64,000 nt of DNA from Pneumocystis sp. 'macacae' (taxonomy: Eukaryota; Ascomycota; Pneumocystomycetes; Pneumocystales; Pneumocystaceae), in NCBI GenBank assembly GCA_018127085.1, contig CM030728.1:310001-374000 (forward strand), given 5' to 3'. A program made the translations under genes and the position numbers. This document shows, one piece after another, positions 47,093-60,459 of the stretch. The notes beneath the pieces were generated by a model. It ran no database searches. It worked only from the letters and a program-made list of their open reading frames with translations, and was not told the origin of the DNA. Position 1 is the stretch's first letter; each line of letters begins with the position of its first letter.

Positions 47093-47663
<571 letters not shown>

Positions 47664-48246
47664 TTCTATAGTTTTAGAATATTTTCACTTGGTTTTTTTA
47701 TTGAATTTTCTTGGTTTGCTATGATAATATACGGGACAACACGGAATAATTACCTCGTTATAATAAATTCCGCATCAATAAAAATTCTAAATTTTATCGA
47801 AGAACTTGACGTGTTTACATTCCTCTGTTGCTATAGTGAAATTATGAAAAAAAAAATAATTAGATATTATATAAAATAATGAAATACATCGTGATATAGT
47901 TATTTTTGTGTGTATGTATATGTTTTGTTTTTATATTATTTAGTTTAAAAAAAAAAACAAATGTTTTATAATTTACATAGTTTTTATTTTGCTTTTATTT
48001 TTCTTAGAATGAATTCTTGTGGGTTAGGGGTATTATTATTAGGTCAGTTTTGATGTATTGAAGAAATAAAGGATATATTGATTTAATTTTTATGGTTTAA
48101 TAGTTATTGCATTTATAAAATTGTATAATTGAAATAGTGTTCTTTTTGAAGTATGTTTCAAAAAATTTTTGAAAAAAAGTTAGTTATTTAAGTAAGGGTT
48201 TATCAGAAGAAATATCTATTGAAAAAAAGAATATGAAAAAAAATAA
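47664..48246. promoter_or_regulatory. H2A/H2B divergent promoter with AACCCT-like box
   Basis: Spacer between the H2A start and the H2B relic. It contains an inverted repeat CGGAAT (47742-47747) / ATTCCG (47767-47772) about 80-110 bp upstream of the H2A ATG, and a GGGTTAGGGG element at 48021-48030, whose reverse complement CCCCTAACCC resembles the AACCCT box found in fission yeast histone promoters (bound there by Ams2). No ORF. Confidence 0.5.
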
Positions 48247-48555
48247 CTACTTTTGATAAAAGAAAACTTATCTATCTTATATTTATAAGGTTTTGAAACA
48301 GATTCATCTTGATACTAGTATATCGAATAAGGCAATGTCAATTCTTAATAGTTTTGTAAATGGTAATTTTTATGAGTTAGAAATCTGTTTTAAAATTTGT
48401 AAATATTTTTGAGCGTATTGTTGGTGAAGTTTCAAAGTTTTATTCATATAATAGAAAATTGACTTTTTTTCCGTGAAATTCAGACTTCTATTTGTTAAAT
48501 GTTTCCAGGTGAACTTACAAAACATGCAGTGCCAGGAGCCAAAATTGTAACAAGT
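48247..48555 (+). pseudogene. Decayed histone H2B gene
   Basis: Clear H2B sequence, broken. Recognisable in order: [21 protein letters not shown] then [11 protein letters not shown] (frame from 48263); [20 protein letters not shown] (from 48405); REIQTSIC (48472-48495); MFPGELTKHAV (from 48499). Breaks: stops and a frame change before the TYLSYI block; an intron with donor GTAATT at about 48364 whose acceptor reads TGTAA where TGTAG is expected; a frame change in the T run near 48464; and an in-frame TAA at 48496-48498 where H2B has Leu. One codon is also missing after HAV. Several independent lesions argue against a single sequencing error. The position, head-to-head with H2A, is the ancestral H2A-H2B arrangement. 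Confidence 0.85.
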
Positions 48556-50329
48556 ATTTATTTTTTTATTTTTTGAATATTTGTTTGAATATTTGGTAAA
48601 GTTTATAGAATATTCGTTAAGCGAATATTACTACATTTGTATAATAGTAATTGATTTTTGTTTTTGTTAATGTTTGTAATTTACTTTGATCTTGTTTTCC
48701 ATTATAAATGTTTTTCATTATAAATTTGTTTAATTGTTTAAATATATGTGTAAATGTAACAATTATATTGTGTTGTGTTTTTTTTATTAGATTTACGTAA
48801 ATTTGTTCAAGTTTATAGTATATGTAATGGCTTTATACTTTTAAATATATGCTAATATAAACATATTAATATTTGTGTTTTATTTTAAAATAATTTTATA
48901 GTGTTTGTAATAATATGCTCTATCTTATCAACACTATAGATACATAACGATATGATTGATGTGTATGAATGTATATGAGATTTATGTTTTATAACTATAA
49001 ATATATATTTTAAAAAAATATTGAATAATTTAATTATTCAATGATTTTAGATTTTAGAAAATGTAATTTAATAATATATATATTTAATATATATATTTAT
49101 AATAATATATTAGATAAATATATATAGATTTTAATTAAATATATATAAATGTAATAAATAAATGAAATGTATAATATATAGCATTAAAATATACAATGTA
49201 CTATCAGTTAATAATTATGTAATTTATCCTAATTGTTTTATTTTAATTACATTTTTTTTTTACATCATAATATGATTAAAATATTATGAATTTATATATT
49301 ATTTTTTTTCATAAAATATATTATTTATTTTATTAATAATTAAAATACAATATAATATACACTTATATAATCAATGATATATATGTATTTTTATTTAAAA
49401 AATTTATTTAAATTTAAAAATATATACCAATTTTTTGTAAATTGAGGTTTATATATATATAATTATTTTCTATTGTAATCTATTTTTATTATTTTAATAA
49501 TGTCCTAATAATTATGAAAGTATATTTTTTAATCCATATTTTAGTATAAATTATCTATATAAATTTTAAAATTTAATTATATTTTAGGTATTATATTGTA
49601 TATTCATTAATTATTATGAATATTATATATCAATTACTGTTTATTTATATATAATATTATATAATACATTTACAATTAAATTTAAAGGAAATATATTGTG
49701 TATAGTTAATATACTAATTATTTTTAAAAAATAAATGTTATTTTCTGAATATATATACTAAAAATTAAACAATATACATACATGAGAGTTTATAAATTAT
49801 TATGTCAATTATATAGTAATCAGTTTATAAAATAATATATAAATACACATTAACCCTAATAAAATATATGAAATATCTTTAACTATAAAAATATATATTA
49901 AAAGAGTACAATAGAATAATATATTTAAAATTATCTATAACATTAAAATAACTTTATATTACACTATTTTTACATATGTCTATAATATAAATTTCTCTAA
50001 AATGTTCTCTAAAATGATTCAAATTTTACATATTAAAATAATGATAAAAAAATGACTTAATCATATATAGTTATAATATATATATATTATTTTATTACTA
50101 GTATATTATTTATATGCTAATAACAATATTATAGAATTATTGTACTATAATAAAAAATTATAGTTATTTAATGAATTAAACAAGATTTTATAAATTAATA
50201 CAGTACATAAATTCATATTTTATATGGAATATACAGAAATATTTAAATAACCATTTCAACAATTTTACATAAAAATCATCAATCCAAATTCAACAATTGA
50301 AAATTAAACATATATTTAAAAACATATTT
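48556..50329. other. Extremely AT-rich gene-free block
   Basis: 1.8 kb with almost no G/C, made of TATA and ATAT tracts, from the H2B relic to the cwc22 stop codon. No ORF over 60 codons, no RNA gene. It contains one AACCCTAA element at 49852-49859. I see no tandem unit of regular length; the block looks like decayed non-coding DNA. Confidence 0.5.
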
Positions 50330-52919
50330 CTAACGACTACGTGATCGAGAACTATGTAATTTAGAATGACTATGTATACGAGAATTCAACATCCTAGAAC
50401 GACTATGTGAGCGAGAACGACTTCGCAATCTAGAGTGACCATATATACGAGAATCCAGCATTTTGGAATGATTACGTGAATAAGAATGACTTTGCAATAT
50501 GGAACGACTACGGATACGAGAACCTCGCATTCTTCTAGAACTACGTGACCGAGAACGACATTGCTGTCTAGAACGACTACGTACACGAGAGCCATGTTTT
50601 CTAGAACTACATGATCGGGAACGACTTTGTTGCCTAGAAAAACTACGTATACAAGAGTCATGTGTTCTTCTAGATTCACGTGGTGATTCACGTGGTCGCG
50701 AACAAGATTTTGAAGACCCAGAAGTATCATTGGAATAAGTCTCTGACAAATATGAAGTAGTATATGATGCAGTACTTATTGGAGATGATATAGACTTCGA
50801 AAGAGATTGTTTTGCATTAATATCATCCTAAAAAAACATGATTAAACATATTTTTTCAAGGAAAGATTCAAAAAAATCATACTTTTATAGTTTCTAAATG
50901 CTCACGCAACTGAACAGTTATCATTCCTAACCCTATGGAAGTAAAATAATTTATCGCAAATCTAATATTTTTTGGATTATTTCGAGGAAACATATCACAA
51001 AGAGATTCTTGTAAATTTGGATCTTTTAATCGTGTATCTAATTCACGTATACCAAGAACTCCCATTAACTCTTGAAATAATATTTTAACAAAAATTCTAG
51101 AACTACTAGTCGTCTCATCTTCATTTAAATGAATACAACGCATAACATGCCAACTTATAGCATCAGATGATAAAAGATGACCAAAAAATGTAGCAATATT
51201 ACGAAGCCTATTTGTTTCATAACGATGTATGATATCATAATAATTTAAAAATGTTTGTTCAAAATTTTCAGTCCAAAAACGGTTTAATTTGCAAAATCGT
51301 TCACCAATTAAACCATAAAACCGAGAATAAGTTCTTTCTTGACTACAACATTCAATAATCATATTGCACATTTCAATCTAATAAATTTAATAAGATATAA
51401 TATAAAAAGAATCCTAAAAATACCTCTTGCCCCTCTTGAATATTTATTTTCATAAGCTTATGAGCACATTCTTCAAAATTAACACTAGACATAATAGTAA
51501 GATATATAGTTCGTCGAAGATTTATTAACGCTTGATTTGTTTCATCTTTTATATGCATTTTATCATCACCTACTTTTTAAAGATGAATATTTCTATAATA
51601 AAAAAAAAATATAACCTTGTTCATCTGTACTCTCAGACGAGCTTTCACTATCAGAAGATTCATCAGTATCATCACCTAATATTTCGTCTTTAATCTTTTT
51701 ATATTGATCTTCGTTTTCTTGCCACTGTGGATCATATTTGAATATACCCAAACCTTCTTGAACATCTAACTCATCATTCAAACTCAACATGTGAGTAATT
51801 TGATCACCATCTTCTACTAAATCAAGACCCTCTGGAATAATAGGATTATCCTTATATTTGTCCCTTCTAACTTGAAAAAGCACTTCTATCATATATTGAA
51901 CCCTTTTCTCAATAGCACCTTCATGCAAAATAGCCCGAAATCGTTCAAAAACAGCATTACTACCACGTGGAGAAACATCCGCCAAATATGCTCCAACTTC
52001 TCTCATAAAACCAACTGCAACTTCAACAGCATCATTTGAAGGTCTTTCTAAAAGCAATGCCAATATTTCAAGAGCAACCAATTCTTGAGCGACTTGATGA
52101 TTGATCAAATGAGCGATAAACATAGTAGAAGATAAACAAAAAAACTAAAATTATATGTCAAATTTAAAAATCAGGCTATTATTCTTAAACCTTGTCATTT
52201 CTTTTATAAGCTTTCCGAAATTGTACAATTAAACGAGTAAGAAGTAATTCACCAATAGATGGTAACTTTGTATTAATTATAGCAGTCAAAGCCGAATAAA
52301 TTGGAGTAAATGGTAAAGATACTGCCTGTGCTTTCATAATAGAGCGACAATAAAGACCGCGACCACGAATAAGATTTTCACCAAATAATTCAACAACAAT
52401 ATTTTTAATATTTATAGTATTAACCTTAACTATCAAAAACAAGTATATTCTTGCAACTCAGATACCTTATTAATAAGACCATTGATACTTTTTTTAAGAG
52501 CTTCCCAGTACATACGCTGATATTCTTTACTTTCTTTATCAGTAATCTGTGCTTGCAATGCTTTTAGTCGTGCAGGCGGAACATAAACGCCACCTAATAT
52601 ATCTTAAAAAAACTAAAAAATAAATGCAAAACTTACCAGCACGTGTATTCATTAACCGCTCAAATTCAACTTTTGGATCAAACACTGACTTTAATTCCGA
52701 ATGAGTATAATTGACATTCTCAAACTCATTATTTACTTGATGTTGTTTCATATTTTTAACGTCAAAACTTGTGTTAGGAAGATTATTAGATAAAGATGTC
52801 CATGGAGCAGAAATTCGTTCTTTCGAAGAACCTAAAGAAAGAATCTGAGAACTTTTTTCAAGTGGAGAATAAGGTGATCTTTTAGTATTGAAAACAGATC
52901 CATCCTTAGTATCATCCAT
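50330..52919 (-). CDS. cwc22: Cwc22, spliceosome factor (MIF4G + MA3)
   Basis: Spliceosomal protein that loads eIF4A3 (in species with the exon junction complex) and is essential for pre-mRNA splicing. It starts at 52919 with a Ser-rich tail, then [15 protein letters not shown], then [24 protein letters not shown], the MIF4G domain ([66 protein letters not shown]), an acidic linker ([15 protein letters not shown]), the MA3 domain ([59 protein letters not shown]), and a long RS-repeat tail (to 50330). At least six short introns. The RS tail is encoded by imperfect tandem DNA repeats and may vary in length between strains. Confidence 0.94.
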
Positions 52920-59392: not shown

Positions 59393-60459
59393 ATTTATAA
59401 TATTTATATATTCAAAAAAACGTTTTTTTTTTAAACAAGTTGAAAACAAAAACAATCTCATAATTTGTACTTTATAATCGTTTCTTTTTTGTATTCGATT
59501 TTTACAAAATACTAATTATTCAAATACTAACATATTTTAATAACTAAAAAAATACATGTAATAAAAAACTGAAACAATCATACATAAATATATGTTATCT
59601 AATTAATTAAAAAATAATATTCTAAATATGCAAACTTATTTTTTCTTCAAAAACATTGCTTAATAAATATAAGTTTATCTTAAATCTTTTTTCAAATATT
59701 TATTATTATAAATAGTTTTATTATTGATATTTTTTAAATATAATTATTTTTTTTTTCAAAAATTACAAAAAATATTAAGTGAAAAATTATATAAAAATAT
59801 TTTAAATAAGATCCAACTTATTAAAATAATTATTTAACATATTCAAACATATTAAATTAATCATCAAAAATTCAATATCTAAATAATATTTGAAAATATA
59901 TAAAAAAGATTTGTTAAAATATAATTTTTATTTAAAAATTAAAATTTCAAAAAATAAACATAAACTTATTCTTTAAATAATATTCAAAATTTCATGAAAA
60001 AATAAATATATTAGTAACAAATATATACATATATACATATATTGCAATTATCGTACATAGAAATACTTCATTTATCAACATATTATAAAAATATATTTAA
60101 AATTTTTTCTACACATTTTTACCAAATAAACATATACAGGGTTAGGGTTATATTATCAGAAGATGAAACATAGTAAAACGAGAAATAGTACTTTAAGAGA
60201 AAAAAGTATCAGAAAAAATATATTTCAAAAAGAATAACTTTCATACGTAATATTTTAAAAATACAAAGAATTCTGAAGGAGCATAAAGATATTCATATTA
60301 TCTATTTCTTCTCTTTTGGGATTAATATTTTATAATCATTAGAAAATTTAAGTCTTCTGTCCATATGTCAGAACCTCCGATCTAACTTTACTACACAAGG
60401 GAATATCCTAAGAAATAATTTTAGAATACATATTCTTATAGGTAGACTAAAACATTATC
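59393..60459. other. AT-rich spacer with telomere-like GGGTTAGGGTTA
   Basis: 1.07 kb between divergent starts of clpP and ccr4, without ORFs. It contains a GGGTTAGGGTTA dimer at 60139-60150, about 310 bp before the ccr4 start. The dimer stands out against the A/T background and could be a binding site for a TTAGGG-recognising factor (Tbf1/Teb1 type). Confidence 0.45.

Follow-up and report, generated by a model that had tools for sequence, protein, structure and literature searches.

The closest described counterparts of the locus analysed here are the divergent H2A-H2B pairs of other fungi, namely HTA1-HTB1 and HTA2-HTB2 of Saccharomyces cerevisiae and the single pairs of Lipomyces and Tortispora, in which the two genes lie head-to-head on either side of a short shared spacer (PMC10917516, in the portion of the article available). 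The same portion describes how Hanseniaspora lost one of two old histone copies, with the disappearance of whole H2A-H2B and H3-H4 clusters, and the loss of paralogous histone genes is thus a kind of event that is already known (PMC10917516). The stretch of Pneumocystis macacae DNA analysed here (64 kb, C9:310001-374000; hereafter the window, to whose first letter coordinates refer unless they carry a contig name) contains an H2A gene and the remains of an H2B gene in this same head-to-head arrangement. Unlike in the divergent pairs above, the H2B half is dead and an intact H2B gene is found some 40 kb away; and although an old copy was likewise lost in Hanseniaspora, here the loss touched only the H2B half and left a relic that can still be read, and the gene that survives is an unlinked paralog whose tail differs.

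We consider it about 80 % probable that the relic represents, in decayed form, the H2A-linked member of an ancient H2B gene pair, and that the unlinked paralog, designated type I below, appears to supply H2B. No description of this H2B case was found in the open-licence literature, where none of the articles retrieved treated Pneumocystis H2B gene copies as judged from titles and the start of abstracts, and a term search of PMC7940399 returned neither "histone" nor "pseudogene".

An intact H2A gene and the remains of an H2B gene

The H2A gene (47093..47663, minus strand) codes for a protein of 132 aa that ends in SQEL and contains the Pfam domains Histone and Histone_H2A_C, as deduced from a splice reading with five exons (47663-47513, 47468-47388, 47342-47242, 47196-47148 and 47109-47093). 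Its product is 97 % identical to that of P. oryctolagi and 95 % to that of P. canis, the closest Pneumocystis sequences among the matches listed. By reading, its first intron (47469-47512) appears to end in AAG and not in TAG or CAG. The spacer that separates H2A from the divergent H2B relic (47664..48152) holds the sequence GGGTTAGGG at 48021-48029, a 9-mer that occurs twice in the 64-kb window, the other occurrence being at 60139, and that is similar to the AACCCT box of fission-yeast histone promoters (PMC4614360, available part). On the other side of the relic lies the gene for the splicing factor CWC22 (50330..52919, minus strand), whose product is 92 % identical to that of P. jirovecii and 86 % to that of P. 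canis, which probably places this genome nearest to P. jirovecii.

A scan with whole H2B proteins detected three core blocks on the plus strand, collinear with H2B, at 48260-48370, 48402-48464 and 48472-48531, with scores of 145, 64 and 66 (best score of 49 and mean of 28 in a control with 208 chunks of the same window). When yeast H2B was compared with the whole genome in six frames, the relic was recovered through its first block and the edges of this alone, with an E value of 3.2e-11 and two stops. In a splice reading, core block 1 (48260..48362) ends in SFVN and is followed, in the right phase, by a remnant intron of 40 nt (48363..48402) that starts with a GT donor and ends in TAA instead of AG. 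Core block 2 (48403..48464) gives way to a frame change in a T run, where 7 nt are found after 48464 versus 9 in living H2Bs. Core block 3, with a C-terminal piece (48472..48553), reads REIQTSIC*MFPGELTKHAV, then PGAKIVT, which includes an in-frame TAA at 48496 and leaves 7 codons after HAV versus 8 in living H2Bs. A probable remnant of a second intron (48554..48608, by reading) follows at the position of the last intron of the intact gene, with its donor (48554) still legible at the 3′ end of the relic, and by eye there is a possible scrap of the last exon at 48609-48622.

The relic extends further upstream than its core. In the core frame, TGA (48254) and TAA (48257) precede the block that starts with KKTY, and a tail remnant (48153..48259, plus strand) can be followed from an old ATG at 48153, whose frame reads MFQKIFEKKLVI and contains further stops at 48189 and 48234. 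In the whole-protein scan this piece scored 27, not above the control mean of 28. Nevertheless, its site was the best place within 47664-48250 for 8/8 H2B tails tried, and the score was reached by 0/200 shuffles for both type II tails and by 0 to 2/200 for the six type I tails. Judged from its placement, the upstream piece is an H2B tail, although the placement scores do not separate the two types.

These results confirm that the relic is an H2B pseudogene, with a disabled frame and relaxed constraint. The preliminary description had proposed an H2B pseudogene head-to-head with an intact H2A, which the block scores, the whole-genome search and the splice reading bear out, and had listed lesions (stops and a frame change at the N-terminus, the splice acceptor, the T run, the TAA at 48496 and the missing codon after HAV) that are all present in the sequence; of the extent it gave, 48247..48555, the core holds, whereas the limits do not, because the relic is longer and begins with the scarred tail at ATG 48153. 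A collinear similarity to H2B, the disabled frame and introns that are still in place by reading agree with an unprocessed pseudogene; a retrocopy was rejected because introns are kept. At the DNA level, 48240-48640 matched the genome at its own location only, a plasmid collection gave no match, and ARAGORN found no tRNA in the 64-kb window.

The intact H2B gene and other histone genes of the genome

The genome searched comprises 8,274,841 bases in 19 contigs, and as the protein searches are limited to scoring the top candidates, any copy number derived from them is a minimum. Yeast H2B produced three matches at two places, the relic and a single intact gene on contig C9, two exons of which were matched with E values of 3.9e-39 and 2.4e-7. 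This gene codes for 134 aa, is interrupted by introns of 37 and 40 nt, and starts with an ATG at C9 398536, 40,383 bases from that of the relic on the same contig. It is flanked by a CDC20/Fizzy WD40 gene and by one for a separase-type peptidase, not by H2A. The search for H2A identified three exon matches, all of them in the window, and one more on contig C5, 60 % identical over 63 residues and with one stop inside, which we take to be probably H2A.Z.

The genome search thus revealed, as lower-bound counts, one canonical H2A gene and one intact H2B gene, which are now unpaired. A functional H2B elsewhere in the genome had been anticipated, and an intact gene is indeed found 40.4 kb away on the same contig; the alternative suggestion, that the locus is one of two H2A-H2B pairs, is not supported, given that no second canonical H2A was found in the genome search and that the intact H2B has no adjacent H2A. 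A second complete pair was rejected because the sole H2A match that this search gave outside of the window, that on C5, is only 60 % identical over 63 residues.

Boxes similar to AACCCT (CCCTAACCC or CCCTAGCCC) also occur at other places: there is a variant about 60 bases before the intact H2B, two exact boxes lie about 0.75 kb 5′ of the H2A-like match on C5, and five are found in C9:1-200000. None was present in the loci of H3-H4 (C2), H3 (C1) and the H3-like gene (C14), and we claim no rule common to histone loci.

Two types of H2B tail in Pneumocystis

The best 120 of 7994 matches to H2B included at least 8 rows from Pneumocystis plus P0017, which is 96 % identical. Their N-terminal tails are of two types. 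Type I (MAPK.., SRKETY) is present in the intact copy from this genome, in P0017, in P. canis PCANB_001197 and PCK1_001163, and in P. carinii, P. wakefieldiae, P. murina and P. oryctolagi; type II (MPQ.., NRKETY) is present in P. jirovecii RU7 (P0036) and P. canis PCK1_001175 (P0028), such that P. canis is annotated with both types. That other species have one type only is judged from annotation among these best 120 of 7994 matches. The type I protein from this genome and type II from P. canis are identical from KETY to the end, and it is thus the tails that carry the signal for the type. The model of P. canis PCK1_001163 (P0007) fuses two type I copies, which suggests a tandem duplication of H2B.

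In a tree of 11 rows, including two outgroups, type I was split from type II plus the outgroups at 96/90, the only starred branch among the eight inner ones. The type I clade contained the sequences from rodent, rabbit and dog hosts together with the intact copy described here, and the two type II proteins formed no supported clade of their own. Shuffled labels clustered as well in 28/500 cases for type I and in 17/500 for type II. Given that type I includes the rodent species and that both types occur in P. canis, the H2B duplication is probably older than the split between rodent and non-rodent species, that is, it would have occurred before the separation of the two main clades of Pneumocystis.

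Type of the relic and alternative explanations

Placement scores of the tails were 26 and 25 for type II and 25 for the tail common to P. murina and P. wakefieldiae type I, and with such a small difference the relic was typed by a codon-based likelihood that allows for gaps, calculated for its tail (48153-48277) at divergences of 0.15, 0.25 and 0.4. A first frame-aware alignment gave a score of 61 to all nine tails, picking up the shared KETY block only. With the likelihood, log-odds at 0.25 were +5.7 for P. jirovecii type II and +1.4 for P. canis type II, and from -2.8 to -16.8 for the eight type I tails, the lowest being a tail without its start; type I from this genome reached -5.2, and the outgroups -7.9 and -19.0. 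Both type II tails led all eight type I tails at the three divergences. Shuffle controls, 60 for each of four tails, had means of -17 to -21 (sd 3.4 to 4.2), and all 60 were exceeded by type I from this genome (-5.2) and, narrowly, by type I from P. murina (-6.1), as expected of any H2B tail. The tail, of about 45 residues, hence appears to fit type II, and best of all the annotated H2B of P. jirovecii. The H2Bs of P. jirovecii RU7 and P. canis PCK1_001175, which share the tail type of the relic and give its best fits, are annotated as intact, whereas the relic is broken.

The alternative that survives best, even if we give it a rather low probability, is that the relic arose recently from the working H2B gene, as a local or a dispersed copy, and died soon after its birth, with no ancient paralog involved. 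The core blocks are compatible with it, because they fit type I from this genome (148, 64 and 66) as well as type II (145, 64 and 66), and the fused tandem model of type I in P. canis (P0007) indicates that H2B copies do arise. Nonetheless, introns interrupt the intact gene at IYK|V and VT|K and the relic at SFVN|D and VT|K, the intact gene having none at SFVN|D, and on account of these different intron positions the relic looks neither recent nor reverse-transcribed. Additionally, its tail prefers P. jirovecii type II over type I from the same genome by about 11 log units, and its head-to-head position with respect to H2A matches that of the pairs in budding yeasts (PMC10917516, available portion). 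Judging by these comparisons, the relic appears to be a long-separated paralog of the working gene and not a decayed twin of it.

Less probable still is that the relic has kept a role other than that of an H2B gene, such as a noncoding transcript or a promoter shield for H2A: the spacer keeps the GGGTTAGGG box and, although the genome is small, the stretch has escaped deletion, but the base composition is drifting to that of the background (23 % GC in the relic, 12-13 % in the far flank). Least credible of all is that a second, working H2B gene has been garbled by the assembly or by the reads, for instance through homopolymer errors of long reads, because, even if some of the changes lie in A or T runs and P. 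macacae was sequenced with Nanopore plus Illumina (PMC7940399, part of the text), the core departs from living H2B at 18/74 positions (with one stop included), stops occur at several places together with a changed splice site and a missing codon, and the genes flanking the relic on either side, H2A and CWC22, read cleanly.

Synteny and proposed order of events

Synteny was judged from locus tags and contig records of the relatives. In P. canis, the type II gene (PCK1_001175) adjoins CWC22 (001176) and is three tags from H2A (001178), and in P. jirovecii the contigs recorded for the type II H2B and for CWC22 have the same length, 518165 bases. The type I gene is 15 tags from H2A in P. canis Ck1 (001163), 18 in PCANB and 37 in P. 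oryctolagi, distances that are in keeping with the 40 kb found here. By tag order, CWC22 stands between H2A and type II in P. canis, whereas here it is the relic that has H2A on one side and CWC22 on the other; a small inversion or the tag numbering could explain the mismatch. H2A and CWC22 are separated by one further tag in P. canis Ck1 (1177), P. canis PCANB (1214) and P. oryctolagi (1981).

Under our preferred reading, that of an ancient duplication followed by decay of the H2A-linked copy, H2B would have duplicated before the separation of the two main Pneumocystis clades, the type II copy (MPQ..) staying near H2A and CWC22 and the type I copy (MAPK..) about 40 kb along the same chromosome. 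Because their histone-fold parts are identical, either copy could have carried the essential function. Once the lineage had separated from P. jirovecii, constraint on the type II copy would have been lost, and stops, frame changes and splice-site damage would have accumulated in it, so that the unlinked type I gene now presumably supplies H2B, its expression being assumed, and H2A probably retains the old divergent promoter region. We infer this order of events, as well as the losses in other species, from the comparisons above. The best fit of the tail to P. jirovecii, together with the intact annotation in this species, suggests that decay began after the two separated. The locus had been regarded as a dated record of histone-cluster decay; an order of events can indeed be proposed, but it carries no date. 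The split between P. macacae and P. jirovecii is dated to about 62 million years, and the genus as a whole is traced to a common ancestor at about 140 million years (PMC7940399, part of the text).

The relic would thus suggest that, within one small and unculturable genus, old H2B duplicates were lost differentially. Histone genes are essential and dose-matched, and, since the H2B copy that shared its promoter region with H2A has been lost, the supply of H2A and that of H2B would be set from two separate loci.

GC-rich islands at histone loci

The intact H2B gene is located inside a sharp island of 3.3 kb (C9:396600-399899) with up to 68 % GC, against a sampled background of 26-29 %. The GC content is highest around the divergent promoter and the 5′ end of CDC20/Fizzy, and gradients extend into the flanking genes; that of separase climbs in GC3 from 0.37 to 0.93 towards H2B within one open frame. 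An assembly chimera was rejected, because the separase frame spans the gradient and pieces of the one CDC20/Fizzy gene occur both in GC-rich and in AT-richer DNA. Among 548 non-overlapping windows of 500 bases sampled from C9:1-200000, the 64-kb window and L038, nine had at least 55 % GC, all in one other island.

Kilobases rich in GC (0.52 to 0.69) are present on both sides of H2B, of the divergent H3-H4 pair on C2 and of the intron-bearing H3-like gene on C14, and the flanks of H2A, of the C5 match and of the second H3, on C1, are not GC-rich (0.22 to 0.31). When loci of 3.4 kb were compared, the C1 and C2 H3 genes were alike over 412 bases (96.1 % identity) and in no part beyond these, as expected of gene conversion or of a short duplication, and the C1 copy was GC-rich only inside the gene.

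As a reading of this pattern of composition, we propose that GC-biased conversion at hotspots may lie behind the islands. It is a tentative and rather unlikely extension of this proposal that sister species run on different H2Bs, which parted before the genus diversified, the human parasite using type II and the present species type I. On this view the gene kept here would owe its survival to a GC-rich island, a long-lived meiotic conversion hotspot that repairs several histone loci and drives them towards GC, while the copy in AT-rich DNA decayed. Searches of the open-licence literature for GC islands, gene conversion and recombination hotspots gave unrelated work only. GC islands at several histone genes would make GC-biased gene conversion testable in an AT-rich fungus.

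Along the same contig as the intact H2B gene, C9:115101-120800 forms a GC island of 5.7 kb, with windows of up to 72 % GC.
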